A DNA stretch of 64,000 nt from assembly GCF_035918235.1 (NCBI RefSeq), contig NZ_CP109485.1, positions 1,178,001 through 1,242,000 of the forward strand. The letters run 5' to 3'. The number at the start of each line of letters is the position of its first letter. The first letter of the stretch is position 1. Source of the DNA: Streptomyces sp. NBC_01445. GTDB taxonomy: Bacteria > Actinomycetota > Actinomycetes > Streptomycetales > Streptomycetaceae. The position numbers and the translations under genes were made by a program. Positions 1,658 to 37,214 of the stretch are shown piece by piece. Below the pieces are notes generated by a model that did not search any database, was not told the origin of the DNA, and saw only the letters and a program-made list of their open reading frames with translations.

Positions 1658-1745
1658 TTCCCGCTCACCCCCCACACAGGCCGTACCGCACCCCACACCG
1701 CAGACGGGACTCGACGGTGAGTCCTTCCGGCATCCTGGAGTAATC

Positions 1746-3234
1746 GTGCACACCACAGCCAAGCCACCGCTCCCCTGGTACCGCGAGGTGAGCCGCCCCC
1801 ATTGGAAGGCGTTCTTCGCCGCCTGGATCGGCTACGTCCTCGACGGGTTCGACTTCGTCCTGATCACCCTCGTACTGACCGAGATCAGCTCGGAGTTCGG
1901 CCTGAGCACCGTGCAGGCCGCGAGCCTGATCTCGGGCGCGTTCATCACGCGCTGGCTCGGCGGAGCCGTCCTGGGCGCGCTCGGCGACCGGTACGGCCGC
2001 AAGCTCTCGATGGTCCTCAGCATCCTCCTGTACTCCCTGGGCACGTTCGCGTGCGGCTTCGCCTGGGACTACACGAGCCTGTTCGTGGCGCGCCTCGCGA
2101 TCGGGATGGGCATGGCCGGCGAGTACAGCGCCAGCGCCACGTACGTCATGGAGAGCTGGCCCACGCGCGTGCGCAACCGGGCCAGCGGGTTCCTGATCTC
2201 GGGCTTCTCGATGGGTTCGGTGCTCGCCGCACAGGTCTACAACTGGGTCGTGCCCACGCTGGGCTGGCGCTGGATGTTCTATGTGGGCCTGGTCCCGATC
2301 GTTGTCGCGCTGTGGATGCGGCGGGCGCTGCCGGAGGCGGCGGACTGGAGCGAGCGAGTCGGTCGGCAGGCAGTCGGAGAAGGAGCGGCCGAACCCGTTC
2401 CGGCCGCTGTTCGCCACGCCCGCCAGGGCGACGGTGAACGTCGTCCTCGCCGTGGCCGCCACCGTGTCGCTGTTCGCGATCTTCACGCCCGTCGGCGACG
2501 GGCTCGTGCCCGCGCTGTCCGCCGTGGCCGCGGTGGCGCTGATCGCGTTCGCCGTGCAGCTGGGCGGGCGCAAGAGCTGGCTGCTCTATGTGTCGATGAT
2601 CGTGACGATCTTCTTCGCGTTCCTGTACTCGTGGCCGATCCAGGCGCTGCTGCCGACGTACCTCAAGACCGAGTTGGGCTACTCGCCGGGACAGGTCACC
2701 GACGCGCTGTACTTCGCGGGTTTCGGCACGATGGCGGGCTGCTGGCTCGCGGGCTTCGCCGGGGACTGGATGGGCACGAAGAAGGCGTACGCGCTGACGC
2801 TGCTCGCCTCGCTGGTCTTCGTCTTCCCGGTGTTCGCGGTGCGCGACAACCTCTTCCTGCTCGGCGTCCTGCTCTTCGTGCTCCAGGCGACCAGCTTCGG
2901 CATCTCCGGGCTGCTGCCCCGGTACATCGGCGGCCACTTCCCCACCGAGAACCGCGCCGCCGCGCTGGGGTTCACGTACAACGTGGGTGCGCTCGGCGGA
3001 GCCGTCGCGCCGGTGCTCGGCGCGCATCTCGCGGCGGGCATGGACCTGGGGCGCGCCCTGGCCGTGCTGACCTTTGCGGGCACGGTGATCGTGGTCCTGC
3101 TGGTCGGCTTCGACATACCGGGCCGTCTGAACCGCCTCACCGACCCGGACGGCACCGTCGACCACCTCGCCGAACCTGCGCCGCATGCGGCGACGTCACC
3201 GTCCGACGGGCAGGTCCCCGCGGCGTCCCGCTGA
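1746..3234 (+). pseudogene. nanT: MFS sialate/sugar-acid transporter (NanT-like), frameshifted
   Basis: A 12-TM major facilitator of the sialate/proton symporter type that would import the substrate for nanK-nanE. The N-terminal half (GTG 1746 behind GGAG) reads to about 2370 and contains D-R-Y-G-R-K in loop 2-3. The C-terminal half (to 3234) is in the next frame, resuming at about [11 protein letters not shown] and carrying five or six more helices. The switch falls near CGGCAGGCAGTCGG (about 2365-2378), just after the sixth helix. The combined length of about 495 residues matches NanT, and both halves are otherwise undamaged. One extra base (or two missing) would explain the break. It could be a true inactivation or an assembly error. 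Its 3' end overlaps the convergent sigma factor gene by 39 bp. Confidence 0.8.
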
Positions 3235-4176
3235 CACACGGGCCCCGCCGCGGCCACCCTCTGTCCAGGGGCGGAGCTTCTCCGGATTGCGTACCGCCCA
3301 GATGTGGGTGATCCGGTTGCCGGCGACGCGGAAGGCGAACACGGTGACCGTGACGCCGTCCTGCTGGGCGACCAGGCCGGGCCGGCCGTTGACCGTACGC
3401 TCCAGCAGTGTCTGGTCGGGTGCGAGGCGGGCGACGTTGAGATAGGCGTGGGCGACCCGTTCGCGACCCGTGACCGGCCGCCGCAGGGCGCCGACCAGGC
3501 CCCCGCCGTCGGCGATCACGGTGGCGTCGGGATCGAGCAGGCCCACGAGGGCGCTCACGTCCTTCGCCGCCCAGGCCTGCTTGAACTCCCGGACGATACC
3601 GGCCTGCGCGGTCGTCGGCCCGGCCGGAGCCTGGGAAGCGCGGATGCGGCGGCGGGCCGAGGAGGCCAGTTGGCGGCAGGCCGCCGGCGTACGCCCGACG
3701 ATCTCGGCCACCTCGGCGAACGCGTAGCGGAAGACGTCGTGAAGGATGAAGGCCACGCGTTCCGCCGGCGTCATGGATTCCAGTACGACGAGGAACGCCA
3801 TGTCGACCGACTCGTCGAGGGTGATCCGGTCCGCCGGGTCCGCCGTGACGCCGTCGGTCCACTCCCGGCGTTCGGGAAGCGGTTCCGGGATCCACTCGCC
3901 CACGTAGCGCTCCCTGCGCGCACGGGCGGAGCCGAGCAGATTGAGGCAGATGCGGCTGGCTACCGTGGTCAGCCAGGCGCCGGGGACTTCGATGGCGTCG
4001 CGTTGCGGCCGGTCCATGGCGTACCAGCGGACGAACGTCTCCTGCACGACGTCCTCGGCGTCGGCCAGCGAGCCGAGGAGCCGGTACGCCAGATTGATCA
4101 GCTGGCGCCGCTCGCTCATGATCGCGCTCAGGCCCGGATCGGCCTGGCCTTGTGCCGTGTCGGTTCGGTTGGCCAT
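3196..4176 (-). CDS. sigJ: ECF sigma factor of the ECF41 type with C-terminal SnoaL-like domain
   Basis: Extracytoplasmic-function sigma factor with a fused regulatory domain. Region 2 contains [19 protein letters not shown] and [14 protein letters not shown]; region 4 contains [19 protein letters not shown]. The remaining 130 residues form an NTF2/SnoaL-like extension with a DGGG motif and a terminal NPEKL, both hallmarks of ECF41, where the extension modulates activity in place of a separate anti-sigma. I chose ATG 4176 over the in-frame GTG at 4188 because the GTG overlaps the AGGGAG ribosome site. A divergent palindromic promoter lies just upstream. The symbol follows mycobacterial SigJ and is a family-level label. 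Confidence 0.88.
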
Positions 4177-4226
4177 GGTGTCGCGCACTCCCTTGCCTCG
4201 GCCTCGTCACTGCCCTCCATCTCTTT

Positions 4227-4292
4227 GACGAGACAGCCCTCCGGAATGTGACGTCGTTCGCGTCGCCTCACATTCCGGAGGGCTGCGTTGTC
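4227..4292. promoter_or_regulatory. Divergent ECF41-type promoters built on a perfect 18-bp inverted repeat
   Basis: The arms 4234-4251 (CAGCCCTCCGGAATGTGA) and 4268-4285 are exact reverse complements separated by 16 bp. Read outward on the minus strand the site gives CGTCACA (4253-4247), 16 bp, CGTC (4230-4227), about 50 bp before the sigma gene. On the plus strand it gives CCTCACA (4266-4272), 16 bp, TGTC (4289-4292), 30 bp before the SnoaL-like gene. The ECF41 consensus I remember is TGTCACA-N16-CGTC, so both directions fit. Autoregulation plus control of the adjacent pair is inferred. Confidence 0.7.
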
Positions 4293-4321
4293 GTACGAGG
4301 TATACGGAACGGAGGAAGCCG

Positions 4322-4789
4322 ATGACCGACTTTCAGGCGATTGCCGACCGCGTCGAGATCGAGGCGCTGCGCGGTGAGTTCACCGACGCGGCGATGATGC
4401 GCGACCGCGCCCGCCTCGCGTCCCTGTTCGCGGAGGACGGCGTGCTGCGGATGCCCGACGTGCCCATCGAGATGAACGGCCGGGAGGAGATCCGCACCGG
4501 GGGCGAGCGGCTCCAGGCCCAGTGGGACTTCTTCGTGCAGAACACGCATCCGGGCGTGATCCGGATCGACGGCGACACCGCGACCGGCCGCGCCTACATG
4601 CAGGAGATCGCGCGCATGCAGAGCGGTTTCCAGGGCCTCAACTACGCGATCTACCACGACCGATACCGCCGCACCGACGAAGGCTGGAGGTTCACCGAAC
4701 GGGTCTACGAGATCCGGTACTTCGACACCACCCCGCTGACGGGCTCGGCTCCGGCCGGGGACATCCACGCTGCTCAGGAGGCACGATGA
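4322..4789 (+). CDS. SnoaL-like / NTF2-fold protein, probable ECF41 target
   Basis: A 155-residue single-domain alpha+beta barrel of the SnoaL_4 type: N-terminal helix with IADRVEIEALRGEF, then LASLFAEDGVLRM, and a C-terminal sheet ending RRTDEGWRFTERVYEIRYFDT. Members include polyketide cyclases, dehydratases and ligand-binding proteins, so no reaction can be assigned. It starts 30 bp after the plus-direction promoter element, and its stop overlaps the next start (ATGA), so it is translationally coupled to the LUD-domain gene. ECF41 loci often contain a small oxidoreductase, epimerase or carboxymuconolactone decarboxylase; a SnoaL-like gene in that place is a variant. Confidence 0.75.
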   Translation: MTDFQAIADRVEIEALRGEFTDAAMMRDRARLASLFAEDGVLRMPDVPIEMNGREEIRTGGERLQAQWDFFVQNTHPGVIRIDGDTATGRAYMQEIARMQSGFQGLNYAIYHDRYRRTDEGWRFTERVYEIRYFDTTPLTGSAPAGDIHAAQEAR

Positions 4790-5418
4790 CCGTCTCGACT
4801 CCGGCCACGCCGTTCACCGGCCCGGCGCCCGCGGACCGCTTGGAGCGGGCGGCCGCCGCGCTGGCGGCGCACCGCTTCACCGTCGAGATCCTGGATGACG
4901 CCGCCGCCGCGCGGACCCGGGTCCAGGAGCTGATCCCGGAGGACGCCAGTGTGTTCACCGCGGCCAGCGAGACGTTGCGACTGTCCGGCATCGACGACGA
5001 CATCAACACCAGCGGCCGGTACCGGGCGGCCGTCAAGCCCCGCGCGGTGACCATGGACCGGGCCGCCGAAGCGGACGACATCCGGCGCCTCATCGCCGTC
5101 CCGGACGTCGTCGTGGGCAGCGTCGCCGCGCTCACCGAGACCGGCTCCCTCGTGGTGGCCTCGGCGAGCGGGAGCCAGTTGCCCGCGTACGCCGGTGGCG
5201 CCGGGCGCGCGATCTGGGTCGTCGGGGCGCAGAAGGTGGTGCCCGACCTGGACACCGCGCTGCGCCGCCTCGAGGAACACGCCCTCCCGCTCGAAACCGC
5301 CCGCGCCCTGGAGGTGTACGGACAGTCCAGCTCCGTCAACCAGCTCCTGGTCCTCAACGCGCAACCCCTCACGGGCCAGGGAATCGTCCTGCTGCTCCGC
5401 GAGGCGATCGGGTTCTGA
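4786..5418 (+). CDS. LUD-domain protein (LutC/YkgG-like)
   Basis: A 210-residue protein of the LUD family, related to the LutC subunit of lactate-utilisation complexes. The fold signatures are the early FTAASETL segment, VPDVVVGSVAALTETGSLVVAS in the middle, and RAIWVVGAQKVVPDLDTAL. The start ATG at 4786 shares ATGA with the preceding stop and has AGGAG 5 bp upstream. No lutA or lutB gene is nearby, so a role in lactate oxidation is not supported. Co-expression with the SnoaL-like gene under the ECF41 factor is likely. A single hairpin terminator follows. Confidence 0.75.
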   Translation: MTVSTPATPFTGPAPADRLERAAAALAAHRFTVEILDDAAAARTRVQELIPEDASVFTAASETLRLSGIDDDINTSGRYRAAVKPRAVTMDRAAEADDIRRLIAVPDVVVGSVAALTETGSLVVASASGSQLPAYAGGAGRAIWVVGAQKVVPDLDTALRRLEEHALPLETARALEVYGQSSSVNQLLVLNAQPLTGQGIVLLLREAIGF

Positions 5419-5434
5419 ACCGACGCTTGACGGG

Positions 5435-5462
5435 GCCTCCCCCAGCTGACGCCGGGGGAGGC
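5435..5462. terminator. Hairpin terminator between convergent genes
   Basis: Perfect 9-bp arms GCCTCCCCC (5435-5443) and GGGGGAGGC (5454-5462) around a 10-nt loop, lying 17 bp after the LUD-domain stop and 18 bp from the stop of the convergent secreted-protein gene. There is no T tract, as is usual in Streptomyces, and it could serve both directions. Confidence 0.7.
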
Positions 5463-5480
5463 TCAGGGCGCGTGTGGGTG

Positions 5481-5882
5481 TCAGGCCGTGACGTCGATGT
5501 ACGTCGAGGGGCCGTAGCTGGATCCGCTGACCGGGGTGACGTACATGCGGACGGTCCTGCCCTCCTCGAGGTCTCCGCCCTTCCACGGGCTGCAGTAACC
5601 GGCGGTGTGGCCGCGGGTGTCGATGCTCCGGTCCATTTTCCCGTCGTAGTTGTAGTCGAGAGCGGTCTCGATGCCCCAGCCGTCCGACTTGGTGTCGCAG
5701 GCGCGGATCGCGTCGCCGGGGATCGAGCCGTCCGGATCGGCGTTCCAGGTGGCGTTGCCGGCGCCGCTGGGCGCGTAGATGGTGACCGTTCCGGCCCAGG
5801 CCTGGCCCTGCAGACCGGCGACGAGGCCGATCGCGCAGGCACCGGTGGCGAGCGCTCTGATCACGGTGTTTCGGGTCTTCAT
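5481..5882 (-). CDS. Small secreted protein of unknown function
   Basis: A 133-residue protein with a clear Sec signal peptide: a positive MKTR start, a hydrophobic stretch to about residue 25, and an AWA-like cleavage site near QAWAGTV. The mature part is about 100 residues, has two cysteines (RACDTK and GYCSPW) that could pair, and is rich in Gly, Asp and Tyr, consistent with a small beta-rich extracellular domain. I recognise no catalytic motif. It stands alone between a hairpin on one side and the MarR gene on the other. Confidence 0.65.
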   Translation of the reverse strand: MKTRNTVIRALATGACAIGLVAGLQGQAWAGTVTIYAPSGAGNATWNADPDGSIPGDAIRACDTKSDGWGIETALDYNYDGKMDRSIDTRGHTAGYCSPWKGGDLEEGRTVRMYVTPVSGSSYGPSTYIDVTA

Positions 5883-30474: not shown

Positions 30475-31107
30475 TCAGTGCCCCCTGGCGATCCACTCCT
30501 CCAGGTGGGGCGCCTCCGCCCCGATCGTCGTGCTGTCGCCGTGCCCCGTCCGTACGACGGTCTCCGGCGGCAGCGTGAGGAGCCGCTCCCTGATCGACTC
30601 GACGATGGTCGGGAAGTCGCTGAACGACCGCCCCGTCGCACCCGGGCCACCCGCGAACAGGGTGTCCCCCGTGAAGACGGCGCCGAGTTCCGGCGCGTAC
30701 AGGCTGACCGCGCCGTGGCAGTGCCCCGGCGTGTGCAGCACGGTCAACTCCACGCCCGCCACGGCAAGTTGCTGACCATCGACGAGTTCGCCGTCAGGCG
30801 TGCGGTCGGGGTGCTTCTGCTTCCACAGCTCCGTGTCCGCGGGGTGCAGGAGGATGGGCGCCCCGGTGCGCTCGGCGAGCGCGGGTGCCGCGTCGATGTG
30901 GTCGTCGTGCGCGTGGGTGCACACGATGGCGACGAGCCGCCGGTCGCCCACGGCCTCGGCGATCGCGTCGGCGTCGTGCGCCGCGTCGATCACGACGACC
31001 TCGCTGTCGTCCCCGACGAGCCATACGTTGTTGTCGACGTCCCAGGTGCCCCCGTCGAGGGAGAACGTGCCGGACGTGACGAGGTGTTCGATGCGCGCGC
31101 CCGCCAT
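30475..31107 (-). CDS. MBL-fold metallo-hydrolase of the mycothiol formaldehyde pathway
   Basis: A 210-residue glyoxalase-II-like hydrolase with the metal motif THAHDDH (in VAIVCTHAHDDHIDAAPAL), the later H in LHTPGHCHGAVSLY, D in VFTGDTLFAGG and terminal H in VRTGHGDSTTIG. It follows the S-(hydroxymethyl)mycothiol dehydrogenase with TGATG overlap (start ATG 31107-31105), so it is translationally coupled. The likely job is to hydrolyse S-formylmycothiol to formate and mycothiol, by analogy with S-formylglutathione hydrolase; this is inference from the pairing. Confidence 0.8.
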   Translation of the reverse strand: MAGARIEHLVTSGTFSLDGGTWDVDNNVWLVGDDSEVVVIDAAHDADAIAEAVGDRRLVAIVCTHAHDDHIDAAPALAERTGAPILLHPADTELWKQKHPDRTPDGELVDGQQLAVAGVELTVLHTPGHCHGAVSLYAPELGAVFTGDTLFAGGPGATGRSFSDFPTIVESIRERLLTLPPETVVRTGHGDSTTIGAEAPHLEEWIARGH

Positions 31108-32192
31108 CAGAAGATCACCACCGAGCGCAGCACGTCGCCGTGGTGCATCCGCTCGAACGCCTTCTCCACGTCCTCCAGGGCGATCGTCTCGGTCACGAAC
31201 GTGTCGAGGTCGAGCCGACCCTGCCGGTAGAGGTCGATCAGCATCGGGAAGTCGCGCGAGGGCAGACAGTCGCCGTACCAGGACGACTTGAGCGCGCCGC
31301 CGCGCCCGAACACGTCGAGCAGGGGCAGTTCGAGCTGCATCTCGGGCGTGGGGACGCCGACGAGGACGACGGTTCCGGCGAGGTCGCGGGCGTAGAAGGC
31401 CTGCTTGTAGGTCTCCGGGCGGCCGACCGCGTCGATGACGACGTCGGCGCCGAACCCTCCGGTCAGCTCGCGTACGGCCTCGACCGGGTCGGCGGAGCGG
31501 GAGTTGACGGTGTGCGTGGCGCCGAGCTTCCTGGCCGTCGCCAGCTTCTTGTCGTCGATGTCGATGGCGATGATCTTCCCGGCACCGGCGAGGTGGGCGC
31601 CGGTCACGGCCGCCGCGCCGACCCCGCCGCAGCCGATGACGGCGACGGAGTCGCCGCGGCCCACGTTGCCCGTGTTGATGGCGGCGCCGAGACCGGCCAT
31701 GACGCCGCAGCCGAGCAGACCCGCTGCGGCGGGCGACGCCTCCGGGTCGACCTTGGTGCACTGCCCGGCGGCGACGAGCGTCTTGTCGGCGAACGCGCCG
31801 ATCCCGAGCGCGGGCGAGAGCTCCGTGCCGTCGAGGAGCGTCATCTTCTGCTTCGCGTTGTGCGTGTCGAAGCAGTACTGGGGGCGCCCGCGCAGGCAGG
31901 CGCGGCACTGGCCGCACACGGCACGCCAGTTGAGAATCACGAAGTCGCCCGGCGCGACCTCGGTGACCCCGTCCCCGACCGCCTCGACGACACCGGCCGC
32001 CTCATGACCGAGCAGGAACGGGAACTCGTCGTTGATGCCGCCCTCCCGGTAGTGCAGGTCGGTATGGCAGACCCCGCACGCCTGGATCTTGACCACGGCC
32101 TCCCCTGGCCCCGGATCCGGCACGACGATCGTCTCGATCCGCACCGGCTCTCCCTTGGCCCGCGCGATCACGCCTCGCACCTGCTGCGCCAT
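31107..32192 (-). CDS. S-(hydroxymethyl)mycothiol dehydrogenase (zinc alcohol dehydrogenase family)
   Basis: A 361-residue zinc enzyme that oxidises the formaldehyde-mycothiol adduct with NAD+. Catalytic zinc ligands: [11 protein letters not shown] and [10 protein letters not shown]; structural zinc in [20 protein letters not shown]; Rossmann motif [20 protein letters not shown]. The close match to the mycothiol-dependent branch (MscR/AdhE2) fits an actinomycete. Start ATG 32192 ([15 protein letters not shown]) avoids a long unneeded extension. It is coupled to the metallo-hydrolase and is divergent from glutathione peroxidase, a compact thiol-stress region. Confidence 0.9.
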
Positions 32193-32308
32193 GACGATCA
32201 GCCCTCCACTCGCTCGTCGCATCGTTCTTGGCCATCTTCACAGATGGGCCCCCGATCCGGACCGGGGTGACGCGGAGCGCGACCGCACGGGTCGCTAGCA
32301 TCCGAAGC

Positions 32309-32800
32309 ATGTCTGTCTACGAGAATGTCGAGATCGCCGCCCTCCAGGGCGGCCCCGCCGACCTCCCCCAGTACGAGGGCAAGGCCGTCCTCATCGTCAA
32401 TGTGGCCTCGAAGTGCGGCCTCACCCCGCAGTACGCGGCCCTGGAGCAGCTCCACGCCGAGTACGCGAGCCGCGGCTTCAGCGTGCTCGGGGTCCCCTGC
32501 AACCAGTTCATGGGCCAGGAGCCCGGCAGCGCCGAGGAGATCGCCGAGTTCTGCTCGGCGACGTACGGCGTGACGTTCCCGATGACCGAGAAGGTCGAGG
32601 TGAACGGCGACGCGCGCCACCCCCTGTACGAGCGTCTGGTCACCACGGCGGACGCGGAGGGCCACGACGGGGACATCCGCTGGAACTTCGAGAAGTTCGT
32701 GCTCTCCCCCAAGGGCGAGGTCGTCGCCCGCTTCTCGCCGCAGGTCGTGCCGGACGCCCCCGAGGTGCTCGCCGCGATCGAGGCCAACCTTCCGAATTGA
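32309..32800 (+). CDS. gpx: Glutathione-peroxidase-family thiol peroxidase
   Basis: A 163-residue thioredoxin-fold peroxidase reducing hydroperoxides with thioredoxin or mycothiol-linked donors. Peroxidatic Cys in NVASKCGLTPQYAALEQL (about residue 37), Gln in VPCNQFMGQEPG, and Trp in DIRWNFEKFVL complete the catalytic set. The stop TGA (32798-32800) lies within the right-end cleavage site of the TnpB element. Joining bases 32795-32796 to 34336-34339 gives AAA-TGA, so the ancestral gene ended in Lys at the same length; the present end is Asn-stop. Function should be unaffected, but the 3' UTR is altered. Confidence 0.92.
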   Translation: MSVYENVEIAALQGGPADLPQYEGKAVLIVNVASKCGLTPQYAALEQLHAEYASRGFSVLGVPCNQFMGQEPGSAEEIAEFCSATYGVTFPMTEKVEVNGDARHPLYERLVTTADAEGHDGDIRWNFEKFVLSPKGEVVARFSPQVVPDAPEVLAAIEANLPN

Positions 32801-33000
32801 CATGCTCCTCGGGCTGAAGCCCGAGGATTCTGGCCGTCCCACGGGTTGCTGTGCCGCTACGCGGCACGGCTTCCTGCTGGGATTCCGTGGCTTCCTGTTT
32901 CTTCGCGCTGTGCCAGAACAGGTTCTGGTCTTACCTTCGCTCCGCAGGCCGATGCCGCCAGTCCGGCGGCCTGTTTCACATTCTTGGCGGCGTTGACATC
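32797..33000 (-). ncRNA. Candidate omegaRNA of the TnpB element
   Basis: In characterised IS200/IS605 TnpB systems the guide RNA spans the tnpB 3' end and right end and stops at the element boundary, with the adjoining flank as guide. Here the minus-strand transcript would end in the hairpin CCTCGGGCTTCAGCCCGAGG and TCAA, and the guide would be TTCGGAAGGTTGGCC and onward, which is antisense to the last codons of gpx. The 5' limit is not visible; 33000 is an estimate. Confidence 0.55.
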
Positions 33001-34089
33001 CCGGTCATGCCGGGTGCCGCAGGCGGGGCAGGTCCACTCCCTGACGCGCAGGGGTTTGGGCCCGTCGTGGTGACCACAGGCCGAGCACACCTGACTGGTG
33101 GGCTCGAACCGACCGATCTTGATAAAGGTCCGCCCGTACCGAGCCGCCTTGTAGGCGAGCATGGTCACGAACTGTGACCAGCCCGCGTCATGGACGGACT
33201 TGGCCAGTTTGGTGCGCGCGAGGCCCTTGACCGACAGGTCTTCCACGGCGATCGCTTGATTCTCGCGGATCAACCGGGTGGAGAGCTGATGGTGGAACTC
33301 CTTGCGCGCATCGGCGACCTGCGCATGCGCGCGGGCAACCTTGAGCCGGGCCTTGGCCCGGTTCTTCGAGCCCTTCTGCTTGCGGGACAGCTCCCGCCCG
33401 GCCTTCTTGAGCTTCTTCTCCGCCCGGCGCAGAAACCCCGGGGAGTCGATCTTCGTGCCGTCGGACAGCACCGCGAAGTGGGTCAGCCCCAGGTCGATAC
33501 CGATGGCCTGCTCAGTGGCGGGCATCCGGCCGGCGTCGGCGGCCGGGTCGGTGTCGATGACAAAGCTCGCGAAATACCGCCCCGCACTGTCTTTGATCAC
33601 GGTGACCGAGGACGGCATCACGGGCAGGGTGCGGGACCACTTCACCCGCACCGCGCCGATCTTCGGCAGGTTCAGCCGGCCGCCCGGGGTGATCGACCAG
33701 CGGGCGTTGGCCGTGAACCGGATCGACTGCCTCGGATCCTTCCGCGACTTGAACCGCGGCGCACCCACCCTCGCGCCCTTGCGCTCACCCTTGAGGGAGG
33801 CGAAGAACGCCTTATAGGCCGCCTCCACATCCCGCAAAGACTGCTGGAGCACCACCGAGGACACCTCGCCCAGCCAAGACCGCTCCACGGTCCGCTTGGC
33901 ACGGGTGATCAAGGTCTGGGACAGCTCGGCGGCCTTCGGATACGGCAGACCCGCCGCGTGCGCGTCCTGGCGGGCGCGCACCGCGTCGTTGAACACGACC
34001 CGCGCGCACCCGAACGCCCGGCCCAATGCGAGGCGTTGACCCGGTTCCGGGTACAACCTGAAGGCGTACCGAAGCTGCATGAACATCAC
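32857..34089 (-). CDS. tnpB: TnpB RNA-guided endonuclease (IS200/IS605 accessory protein)
   Basis: A 410-residue TnpB. RuvC catalytic residues are all present: Asp199 in AIGIDLGLTHFAVL, Glu283 in AIAVEDLSVKGLA, and Asp364 in RHDRDVNAAKNVKQA. The zinc finger has Cys335, Cys338, Cys354 and Cys357 (CSACG and CPACG). The N-terminal OrfB-type REC/WED region is complete (LYPEPGQRLALGRAFGCARVVFN). Length is typical, with a short C-terminal tail. The start may be ATG 34086 or 34080 instead of GTG 34089. The protein appears active, so this is a potential RNA-guided nuclease rather than a relic. Confidence 0.92.
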   Translation of the reverse strand: MMFMQLRYAFRLYPEPGQRLALGRAFGCARVVFNDAVRARQDAHAAGLPYPKAAELSQTLITRAKRTVERSWLGEVSSVVLQQSLRDVEAAYKAFFASLKGERKGARVGAPRFKSRKDPRQSIRFTANARWSITPGGRLNLPKIGAVRVKWSRTLPVMPSSVTVIKDSAGRYFASFVIDTDPAADAGRMPATEQAIGIDLGLTHFAVLSDGTKIDSPGFLRRAEKKLKKAGRELSRKQKGSKNRAKARLKVARAHAQVADARKEFHHQLSTRLIRENQAIAVEDLSVKGLARTKLAKSVHDAGWSQFVTMLAYKAARYGRTFIKIGRFEPTSQVCSACGHHDGPKPLRVREWTCPACGTRHDRDVNAAKNVKQAAGLAASACGAKVRPEPVLAQREETGSHGIPAGSRAA

Positions 34090-34374
34090 CCTAGGTACGC
34101 CCTCTCGGACACCGCCCCAGAAGATCGGAACTGATCACGATCAGTCCTCCTGTTTGACGCTCGCGCGCAAGTTCGATCTATTGCGCCCGCCAATGATCAT
34201 TGGACGCGTGGGCGGAGGCCGGGCGGGCGGCGGAGTCACCACGCCTCCCTGCTCCGCAGGGAGGCACGCCGCGACGCTCCGCGTCGCTATCGCAAGATTC
34301 ACTTCACCACCGGGCTGAAGCCCGATGCACTGCGAATGAATCCCGGTAGCGGTTACGCGGTACTCCGCTCGCCA

Positions 34375-34424
34375 GCCTCCATCATGCCCCGCTCCCAGCA
34401 GTCGGCGCGGGGCATGACGGAGGC
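34375..34424. terminator. Large hairpin downstream of the element, probable former gpx terminator
   Basis: Arms GCCTCCATCATGCCCCGC (34375-34392) and GCGGGGCATGACGGAGGC (34407-34424) pair in 17 of 18 positions around a 14-nt loop. In the reconstructed uninserted locus it lies about 35 bp after the gpx stop, the normal terminator position. The insertion now separates it from gpx by 1.5 kb. Confidence 0.6.
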
Positions 34425-34523
34425 TCCGTGGCCGACCAGGTCGGGCGCGATGACGGCGCGGGGGAACGGCTCGCTCGCGGCGCGGTCTCGCGCCGCTCCC
34501 CCGCGTCCACGACAATGGCTGCG

Positions 34524-36047
34524 ATGACGCCCGAACCCGTCGAGTCCACCCCCGGAATCCGGCTCTCCTCCGCCAGGGGTCGCTGGATCCTCGCCTGTGT
34601 CGTCCTGGCCTCCGGGATGGCGATGCTCGACGGCACGGTGGTGAATGTCGCCCTGCCGACCATCGGCCGCGACCTCGACGCCTCCCTGTCGAGCCTCCAG
34701 TGGGTCGTGAACGCCTACATGCTGACGCTGTCCGCCCTGCTCCTGTGGGGCGGAGCGCTCGGCGACCGGATCGGGCGGCGGCGCACTCTCGCGCTCGGCG
34801 TGGCCTGGTTCGCGGTCGCGTCGGCGCTGTGCGGGCTCGCCCCCGACCAGGGTGTGCTCATCGCGGCCCGTGCGCTGCAAGGAGTGGGCGGTGCGCTCCT
34901 CACCCCCGGGTCGCTGGCCCTCGTACGGTCCTCGTTCCACCCCGACGACCAGTCGCGCGCCGTGGGCGCCTGGTCGGGGCTCACGGGTGTGGCCGGGGCG
35001 CTCGGACCGTTCCTCGGCGGGTACCTGATCGACGGACCCGGGTGGCGGTGGATCTTCCTGATCAATGTGCCGCTGGCCGTGATCGTGCTGCTGATCGCGG
35101 TGCGGCACGTGCCGGAGAGCCGTGAGGCCGGGGTCGCCGGGACCCGCTTCGACATGGCGGGCGCCTCGCTCGCCGCCCTGTGCCTGGTGGGCATCAGTTA
35201 CGCGCTGATCGGGTCGTCCGGCGGCGCGTCCCTCGTGTCGACGGCGCTGCCCGCCGTACTCGGTGTCGCGGCCGGCATCGCCTTCGTCGTCGTGGAGCAC
35301 CATCGCGCTGAGCCGATGCTGCCGCCCTCGCTGTTCCGCTCCCGGCTGTTCAGCGCGGCCAACGCGATGACGCTGTGCCTGTACGCGGCGATCGGCGGCA
35401 TCCTGTTCCTGCTGCCCGTACAGCTCCAGATCGCGCTCGGCTACAGCGCGCTGCAGGCGGGTACGGCGACGCTGCCGATCACCGTCCTGATGCTGCTCCT
35501 CTCCCCCCGCGCGGGCGATCTCGCGCGCCGTGTCGGGCCGACGCCGCCCCTGGTCGCCGGGCCGCTGATCGCGGCGGTGGGCCTGCTTCTGATGCTGCGG
35601 ATCGAGCCAGGTGCGTCGTACGTGGCCGATGTGCTGCCCGCGGTGGCGGTGCTCGGCCTGGGCATGAGCGTGTTCGTCGCGCCTCTGACTGCCACGGTCC
35701 TGGCGTCGGTCGAGCCGGGCCGCGCCGGGCTCGCCAGCGGCGTCAACAACACGGCTGCCCGGATCGCGCAGCTCCTCGTGGTGGCGGCGCTGCCGCTGGC
35801 GGTCGGCCTGTCCGGGGACGCGTACACGCAGCCGGACTCCGTCAACACGTCGTTCCACCGGGCGGCCATGGGGTGCGCCCTGCTGTTCGCGCTGGGGTCG
35901 GCGACGGCCGTCTTGTTCATCCGTCCGGCGGCGGTCCGGCCGCGGCTGGAGAAGGCTCCGAAGCCGCAGTGCCGCTCGCATCTGGGCGTGGCGGCACCGG
36001 CGTTGGAGCCCGGGCCGCACAAGCGGAACCAGCGGAAGGTGCTGTAG
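34524..36047 (+). CDS. DHA2-family 14-TM MFS exporter (EmrB/QacA-like)
   Basis: A 507-residue drug/proton antiporter-like protein. Helix 1 has ASGMAMLDGTVVNVALPTIGRDL, with the conserved D-x-T-x-V-N-V-A-L-P of the DHA2 group, then GDRIGRRRTLALGV in loop 2-3 and motif C near GAWSGLTGVAGALGPFLGGYLID. Hydrophobicity gives 14 helices and a basic C-terminal tail. Start is ATG 34524 or 34515; neither has a strong ribosome site. No regulator is adjacent. The substrate is unknown. Confidence 0.82.
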   Translation: MTPEPVESTPGIRLSSARGRWILACVVLASGMAMLDGTVVNVALPTIGRDLDASLSSLQWVVNAYMLTLSALLLWGGALGDRIGRRRTLALGVAWFAVASALCGLAPDQGVLIAARALQGVGGALLTPGSLALVRSSFHPDDQSRAVGAWSGLTGVAGALGPFLGGYLIDGPGWRWIFLINVPLAVIVLLIAVRHVPESREAGVAGTRFDMAGASLAALCLVGISYALIGSSGGASLVSTALPAVLGVAAGIAFVVVEHHRAEPMLPPSLFRSRLFSAANAMTLCLYAAIGGILFLLPVQLQIALGYSALQAGTATLPITVLMLLLSPRAGDLARRVGPTPPLVAGPLIAAVGLLLMLRIEPGASYVADVLPAVAVLGLGMSVFVAPLTATVLASVEPGRAGLASGVNNTAARIAQLLVVAALPLAVGLSGDAYTQPDSVNTSFHRAAMGCALLFALGSATAVLFIRPAAVRPRLEKAPKPQCRSHLGVAAPALEPGPHKRNQRKVL

Positions 36048-36068
36048 CGGCGGGGCGGGCGGACCGGC

Positions 36069-37214
36069 TCAGCTCCCGAACGGGACCTGGGGCGCCGTCA
36101 GCGCTGCCGAACCCCGGTGCGGGTGTGCCCAGAGCCCGCGGGCTTGCAGCCGTGGCAGGACGCCCTCCCCGAACCAGTACGCCTCCTCCAGGTGCGGGTA
36201 TCCGGAGAGCACGAACTCGTCGATGCCGAGACGGTGGTACTCCTCGACGCGGTCGGCGACCTCGTCATGGCTGCCGACCAGCGCGGTACCGGCGCCGCCG
36301 CGTACGAGGCCGATGCCGGCCCATAGGTTCGGGTGGATCTCCAGGCTGTTGGAGCTTCCGCCGTGCAGGGCGAGCATGCGCCGCTGGCCCTCGGACTCGC
36401 TGCGCGCCAGCCCTTCCTGGACGGACCTGACGGTGGCCGGGTCGAAGCCCTGGAGGAGCCGGTCGGCCTCCGCCCAGGCCTGTTCGGCGGTGTCGCGCGT
36501 GATGACGTGCAGCCGGATCCCGAAGCGGACGGTGCGGCCCTCCTTCTCGGCGAGGCCGCGGATCCAGGCGATCTTCTCGGCGACCTGGGCGGGCGGCTCG
36601 CCCCAGGTGAGGTAGACATCGCTGTGCCGCGCCGCGATCTCCCCCGCGACGGGCGAGGAGCCACCGAAGTACACCTCGGGAACGGGGTCGGGCAGCCGGG
36701 CGAGCCGTGCGTCCTGCACCTGGAGGTGTTCGCCCGCGAGATCGACGGTGTCGCCGGCCCACAGCCCCCGGACGATCTCCAGGAATTCACCGGTGCGCGC
36801 GTACCGGGATTCCTTGTCGAGGAAGTCGCCGTAGGCGCGCTGCTCGCGGCTCTCGCCGCCCGTCACGACGTTCAGCAGAAGTCTGCCGCCGGTCTGGCGC
36901 TGGTACGTGGACGCCATCTGCGCGGCGAGCGTGGGCGAGACGAAGCCGGGCCGGAACGCGACGAGGAACTTCAGGCGCTCGGTCTGCTGGCTGAGCATGG
37001 CGGTGGTCAGCCAGGCGTCCTCGCACCAGGCGCCGGTGGGGGTCAGCGCGCCGACGAAGCCGAGGTCCTCGGCGGCGCGGGCTATCTGCGTGAGGTAGCC
37101 GATGGACGGGGGCCGGTCACCGCCCGCCGCGGTCACGGGTGTGCCGTGACCACCGCCGACGACGTGGCGGCTGTCGCCGTTGGTCGGCAGGAACCAGTGG
37201 AAGGTGAGGGACAC
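36069..37214 (-). CDS. ssuD: FMNH2-dependent alkanesulfonate monooxygenase
   Basis: A 381-residue luciferase-like monooxygenase that releases sulfite from alkanesulfonates. The N-terminus FHWFLPTNGDSRHVVGGGHG, the flavin region LKFLVAFRPGFVSPTLAAQMASTYQRQTGGRLLLNVVTGG and PEVYFGGSSPVAGEIAA are diagnostic of SsuD. It is the second gene after a Cys leader peptide and an FMN reductase, so the three act together in sulfur scavenging. No ssuABC transporter genes follow on this strand in the window. Confidence 0.9.
   Translation of the reverse strand: MSLTFHWFLPTNGDSRHVVGGGHGTPVTAAGGDRPPSIGYLTQIARAAEDLGFVGALTPTGAWCEDAWLTTAMLSQQTERLKFLVAFRPGFVSPTLAAQMASTYQRQTGGRLLLNVVTGGESREQRAYGDFLDKESRYARTGEFLEIVRGLWAGDTVDLAGEHLQVQDARLARLPDPVPEVYFGGSSPVAGEIAARHSDVYLTWGEPPAQVAEKIAWIRGLAEKEGRTVRFGIRLHVITRDTAEQAWAEADRLLQGFDPATVRSVQEGLARSESEGQRRMLALHGGSSNSLEIHPNLWAGIGLVRGGAGTALVGSHDEVADRVEEYHRLGIDEFVLSGYPHLEEAYWFGEGVLPRLQARGLWAHPHRGSAALTAPQVPFGS

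Follow-up and report, generated by a model that had tools for sequence, protein, structure and literature searches.

The genome of Streptomyces sp. NBC_01445 (11.47 Mb, two contigs) carries a TnpB element inserted precisely at the stop codon of a glutathione peroxidase gene, gpx, for which its own end supplies the replacement stop. Relatives of this element in the genus occupy stop codons at a frequency well beyond the chance level. These observations suggest a harmless way for such elements to settle in their host, and a simple route by which a transposon can enter genes without disrupting them, namely the exchange of one stop for another. Taken as a whole, the element is very probably a non-autonomous, TnpB-only member of the IS200/IS605 family with GCTAC as its target and transposon-adjacent motif (TAM), which would be mobilised in trans, exchanges stops upon insertion, and would owe its enrichment on them mostly to selection.

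The window, that is the whole stretch of 64,000 nucleotides that was analysed, places the tnpB-bearing element between gpx and a gene for an MFS transporter. The parts of the locus that are involved in the stop exchange are the following:

32309..32800, plus strand: gpx (glutathione peroxidase), 163 aa (Pfam GSHPx; comparison with CB01635)

32797..34345, minus strand: complete IS200/IS605-family element, tnpB only, 1549 bp (exact CB01635 empty site and two further empty sites)

34346..34350, minus strand: target and TAM GCTAC (GTAGC on the plus strand), kept in the flank (seen in the empty site and before 82 of 112 left-end hits)

32797..32800, minus strand: right cleavage site TCAA (sequence; empty site; a GTCAA end in most relatives gathered by element DNA)

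Streptomyces sp. CB01635, the closest named relative found and a member of the same species, has the gpx locus without the element (L110). Window positions 31001–32796 correspond there to positions 1693–3488 at 99.3% identity, and positions 34346–36100 to 3489–5262 at 97.4%, with neither gap nor overlap between the two flanks; the empty junction reads CTTCCGAA, followed directly by GTAGCGG. Since the flanks are directly adjacent in CB01635, the element comprises positions 32797–34345, and GCTAC on the minus strand is the retained target. The old gpx stop, TAG (34347–34349), lies inside this target, whereas the present TGA stop (32798–32800) is supplied by TTGA, the complement of TCAA. The uninterrupted gene of CB01635 thus ends with AAG TAG and that in the window with AAT TGA, the product being 163 residues long with and without the element and differing from that of CB01635 in its last residue (K163N). 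An earlier note, made from the sequence of the window, had proposed that the element sits on the gpx stop codon, that the gene was hit without loss of protein length, that a lysine codon comes last where the element is absent, and that the right end is TCAA at 32797, all of which are borne out by the CB01635 locus.

In S. antnestii (L111), with gpx DNA that is 91% identical, no element is present at this place; its gpx ends with CAG TAG and is followed by GTAGT, not GTAGC, leaving it without the target. A search for gpx in 61 genomes gave a match in 52, and the 29 gpx loci that were read in addition to that of the window are more distant homologues, ending at 160–163 aa. The right flank, searched in 150 genomes, gave partial matches, mostly to its MFS part. 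Between the element and the MFS gene, a stretch on the minus strand (34394–34462) matches several Streptomyces genomes at 84–90% and, by reading of its sequence, resembles a fragment of an alpha/beta-hydrolase motif; it is also present in the empty site of CB01635 and therefore predates the insertion.

A left-hand GCTAC and a right-hand TCAA also follow from two further empty sites. Copy L264 of the NBC_01445 genome, which by reading of the translation sits in a glycosidase-like gene, is missing from G185 (same species; taken as CB01635), where query positions 1–2642 and 4220–5719 match adjacent stretches. In turn, copy L260 of G185 is missing from the NBC_01445 genome, with query positions 1–2329 and 4220–5719 matching adjacent stretches. 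The empty sites at gpx, L264, and L260 are seamless, with no target duplication, and terminal inverted repeats are absent as well, the two outer ends not being complementary by reading. The TCAA right end found at 32797 is common to three copies in the NBC_01445 genome. A base-exact TAM and base-exact empty sites are thereby given for a TnpB lineage of high-GC Streptomyces. An additional 91% copy in the same genome (L003, C1:9078976–9080411) has kept its right end, but the first 103 bases are, as aligned, missing from its left end, and it is probably immobile.

The use of GCTAC extends to the genus. A left-end pattern that does not include the TAM, searched in 392 genomes with up to two mismatches, was found at 112 places in 57 of them, some of these places being the same insertion in two strains or near-duplicates (L259/L263, L294/L297) and so not all independent; a reversed control pattern was found at three places. 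GCTAC stands directly before the pattern in 74 of these hits and overlaps it by one base in eight more, while it occurs at neither spacing in 30, some of which are clearly not elements. Wider stretches were taken for 108 of the hits, the other four, which have no left-end hairpin, still being counted in the 112. As background, GCTAC occurs at 840 places in 800 kb on both strands, or about 0.05% of positions. The base that follows the target is preferentially T, with a frequency of 0.47 compared to 0.17 in the background.

Read on the other strand, the target is G-TAG-C and the end of the element is T-TGA, in the same register. GCTAC and TCAA together dictate this register, so that a TAG stop hit in antisense costs the gene none of its length: xxG-TAG is exchanged for xxT-TGA, and at most the last residue changes. 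Both ends were found, and the copy was classified, for 58 of the 112 hits, the other 54, which were left out, having no right end by pattern within 2.1 kb or too short a flank. Seventeen of the 58 copies lie on stops, 18 within genes in sense, four within genes in antisense, and 19 in intergenic sequence, and the 17 gene ends at the stop-sited copies all differ from each other. An exact GCTAC precedes 47 of the classified copies, 43 of which are longer than 1 kb. Fourteen of these 43 lie on stops, as opposed to 26 of the 773 GCTAC sites in the background (odds ratio 13.9, p 1e-9), which comprises the window, 400 kb of the NBC_01445 genome, and 400 kb taken from seven others and was classified with the same code. 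By length alone, the stop fraction is 6/21 for copies of tnpA-bearing size, 9/29 for those of tnpB-only size, and 2/8 for short ones. Damage occurs too, a called gene being interrupted in sense by 16 of the 43.

Two other sources of the excess were considered. An artefact of gene calling was rejected, as the excess is stable over three gene-calling settings, with 13 of 43 copies on stops under both stricter ones (odds ratios 17.2 and 21.9). A preference for T after GCTAC accounts for a part only: once sites are stratified by the base following the TAM, an odds ratio of 8.9 is left, with 2.4 stops expected.

The host genes at the stop-sited copies look real. Besides gpx, 14 of the 16 interrupted reading frames match a Pfam family at E up to 0.001, the matches of L228 and L252 falling below Pfam's own cut-off, and the remaining two, L244 and L299, have none at that threshold. 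In a glpD-like gene (L257), 17 homologues end at the equivalent of 536–539 aa and the interrupted one at 537; in a histidine kinase gene (L300), eight homologues end at 469–489 and the interrupted one at 476. A second set, gathered by element DNA rather than by the left-end pattern, has a right end in 22 of its 29 loci. The right flank is antisense-coding in nine of these 22 readable right ends, by a cut-off (score above 20) that was set after the scores were seen, and in each case the frame is that of the stop register; in the two remaining antisense registers, scores never exceed 1. The first set shares three of the nine, with two classed there as stops and one (L230) as in-gene, and most of the other six are classed by the right end, with left end and old stop not located. 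L230 is the same element as L051; its antisense gene is in the stop register and GCCAC stands in the place of the target, as would result if the TAG, once superseded by the insertion, had mutated to TGG.

Concerning the cause of the excess, the stop-sited copies are rather probably survivors only, insertion being blind to genes and purifying selection leaving the harmless copies at gene ends and in intergenic sequence. In agreement with this, in-gene sites are depleted (rate 0.44–0.56) and intergenic sites on the 3' side of genes are raised (rate 2.0–4.2). However, stop sites are raised 9.7–15.6-fold, more than any intergenic class, although the numbers are small: compared to 3'-side intergenic sites alone, stops are 2.9- to 5.0-fold more frequent, with p values of 0.02, 0.06, and 0.14 under the three gene-calling settings. 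With intergenic sites of every class as the reference, stops have an odds ratio of 7.0 (p 9e-6), or 5.5 when stratified by the next base. An extra preference beyond that for ordinary 3'-side intergenic sites is tentatively suggested.

A source for such a preference might lie in TnpB and its RNA, the predicted parts of which are the following:

32857..34089, minus strand: tnpB, 410 aa as listed from GTG (OrfB_IS605 and Cas12f1-like_TNB domains; matches the solved TnpB 8h1j)

32797..32946, minus strand: putative scaffold of the omega-RNA (reRNA), extending into the 3' end of tnpB (34-sequence alignment, consensus fold, some covariation)

32777..32796, minus strand: predicted omega-RNA guide, antisense to the last gpx codons (from the ISDra2 layout as given in passages of PMC8612924)

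The RuvC motifs GIDLG, AVEDLS (VEDL), and RDVNAA, with the catalytic D/E/D residues, and the CxxC cysteines of the zinc finger are present in the protein, as checked in one alignment, to 9yyg, an AI-designed relative. TnpB matches 8h1j, which we take to be the ISDra2 TnpB protein, over residues 6–380 (E 2.8e-72). For the RNA, the final 150 nt were aligned from 34 copies, each chosen by its GTCAA end out of 50 long ones; the consensus fold has two-sided compensatory changes in eight of 31 predicted pairs, and the covariation term contributes −1.69 of −32.78 kcal/mol, lending modest support to a conserved RNA scaffold structure at the right end. No omega-RNA family of Rfam was matched within 32300–34900 at E up to 1. 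According to passages of PMC8612924, the RNA of ISDra2 has its scaffold at the right end and its guide in the flank, and the TAM is identical to the transposase target. The present TnpB is a homologue of that of ISDra2 from Deinococcus radiodurans and appears to share this right-end layout and the identity of TAM and target, as far as these passages describe them, while its TAM is GCTAC instead of TTGAT and its nuclease is predicted from motifs. Together, GCTAC and the predicted guide sequence form a match to the empty gpx site.

Copies on stops could be kept for their guides, which fall in conserved coding sequence and would enable homing into the empty alleles of other strains. The guide predicted at the gpx locus lies wholly inside the 3' end of gpx, TnpB is intact by its motifs, and the guide layout is as in ISDra2 (passages of PMC8612924). 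Retention of this kind is nevertheless unlikely to be the cause, since sense insertions within genes should have coding guides too, whereas copies inside genes are in fact depleted. The excess is most simply explained by selection for harmless gene-end sites, which is kept as the default. With one and the same element inserted at gene ends, within genes, and between genes, a comparison of the three classes allows a direct measurement of how target choice, purifying selection, and RNA-guided retention are balanced.

We can also put forward, tentatively, a broader view, in which the lineage exploits stops as a niche: the complements of TAG and TGA in one register would permit a cost-free life at the 3' ends of genes, with the TnpB guide in conserved coding sequence allowing homing into empty alleles, and elements similar to IS608 (TTAC/TCAA) should share the design with TAA. 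IS608 itself should, by analogy, have the same stop register, since TTAC complements GTAA.

The comparison with IS608 rests on the subterminal hairpins and the guides next to them:

34311..34324, minus strand: left-end hairpin CGGGCTTCAGCCCG (sequence; a similar hairpin after most left-end hits)

32810..32823, minus strand: right-end hairpin CGGGCTTCAGCCCG (sequence; compensatory changes among 34 relatives)

34328..34331, minus strand: putative guide of the left end, AGTG, 3 nt away from its hairpin and complementary to CTAC (assigned by the IS608 pairing scheme, as in passages of PMC5934647)

32827..32830, minus strand: putative guide of the right end, GAAT, likewise 3 nt away from its hairpin (sequence; identical to IS608 G_R in passages of PMC5934647)

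In IS608, as described in passages of PMC5934647, each cleavage site pairs with a guide at the 5' foot of a hairpin, C_L (TTAC) with G_L (AAAG) and C_R (TCAA) with G_R (GAAT), the pairing includes A+16:T-3 and A+17:T-4, and bases other than T are favoured after the target in both IS608 and ISDra2. By reading, AGTG/CTAC and GAAT/TCAA seem to follow this scheme, the last pair being our extension of it. The right TCAA, GAAT, the subterminal hairpins, and insertion 3' of a short target that is retained on the left are common to the present element and IS608 of Helicobacter pylori, as far as those passages go. The two differ in the target (GCTAC instead of TTAC), in the left guide (AGTG instead of AAAG), in the base favoured after the target (T, but C in IS608), and in the lack of tnpA in this copy.

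On the sequence features tested, the element is a new, tnpB-only member of the IS605 group of the IS200/IS605 family. It has an OrfB/TnpB protein with the IS605 domains (PF01385, PF07282, and PF12323), subterminal hairpins in direct orientation with neither terminal inverted repeats nor target duplication, insertion 3' of a fixed pentanucleotide (82 of the 112 hits), and, by reading and by analogy with IS608, guides 5' of each hairpin that are complementary to the cleavage sites. The Y1 HUH transposase TnpA is absent from this copy. L260, a relative of 1890 bp with the same ends in CB01635, carries both TnpB and a divergent Y1_Tnp transposase (147 aa, E 1.6e-39), and DNA similar to its Y1_Tnp gene, most of it at 72–75%, occurs at many places on both contigs of the NBC_01445 genome, making these a possible source of a transposase acting in trans.

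The element may accordingly be pictured as moving in the following way. A Y1 transposase supplied in trans, such as that of the longer CB01635 relative, would insert it as single-stranded DNA just 3' of GCTAC, here on the minus strand, with the right end at TCAA. TnpB with its omega-RNA, the guide being antisense to the 3' end of gpx, would then cut a resealed or empty gpx allele beside GCTAC, and such cutting would, by analogy with ISDra2, restore or spread the element. Where an antisense hit falls on TAG, the stop is swapped and the length of the gene kept, and harmless insertions of this kind would survive selection.

A different left end had been put forward in the earlier note, which took the element to start after TTCAT, regarded TTCAT as the TAM, and predicted an AAA-TGA junction in gpx. 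Its expectation that the ends can be fixed to the base is upheld by the CB01635 empty site, and so is its right end, but its left end, 34335, falls short of the true one, 34345, by ten bases. Identical hairpins in the same orientation, which it had also reported, are indeed found at both ends, as 15-base sequences at 32810–32824 and 34311–34325. TTCAT does lie near the left hairpin, and the predicted deletion, when translated, likewise ends gpx with Lys and a stop. However, in the empty-site comparison, which the note itself had named as the refuting one, gpx ends with AAG-TAG and the ten bases placed outside the element are missing, which refutes the proposed ends. The same ten bases are common to left ends at unrelated places; the divergent relatives L065 and L067 have kept GCTAC and AGTGC (CAGTGC), with TTCAT changed; and among the 112 left-end hits, 82 have GCTAC before the pattern and one has TTCAT. 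The pairing scheme asks for AGTG in the case of CTAC, whereas TTCAT would need a guide that is not present. A start after TTCAT is thus practically excluded, TTCAT lying inside the element and GCTAC being the TAM. Four places in the NBC_01445 genome share GCTACCGG[AG]ATTCATTCGCAGTGC exactly; the bases shared before TTCAT, for which a longer left end had been considered, turned out to be the left end proper together with GCTAC. A deletion or rearrangement around gpx in place of a simple insertion, to which the hydrolase-like remnant (by reading) between the element and the MFS gene might point, has next to no probability, as the same flanks are directly joined in CB01635 and the remnant is older than the insertion.

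Some integrative elements rebuild the 3' end of their target gene, for example when integrating into tRNA genes. The present element likewise uses the 3' end of a gene and leaves a working gene, but no integrase is seen in its 1549 bp, there is no target duplication, and only the stop is replaced. Among the listed titles, beginnings of abstracts, and passages on TnpB or IS605 in connection with stop codons, insertion sites, or Streptomyces, which cover few subscription journals, neither the GCTAC TAM nor the stop-codon habit was found; this is no proof of either being unpublished. The nearest known way found of making such insertions harmless, going by passages of PMC4227781, is that of the IStrons, in which a group I intron is combined with an IS element of the IS605 or IS607 type. 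Insertions into genes are made harmless there by RNA splicing (passages of PMC4227781), as opposed to the stop swap at the gene end seen here, and none of the five Rfam matches within 32300–34900 (E up to 1) is a group I intron. On the plus strand, positions 33291–33481, antisense to tnpB, give a sub-threshold Rfam match (40.8 bits, gathering 74, E 3e-8) to Sernc389, an antisense RNA of Saccharopolyspora, possibly a trace of antisense transcription in related tnpB genes.
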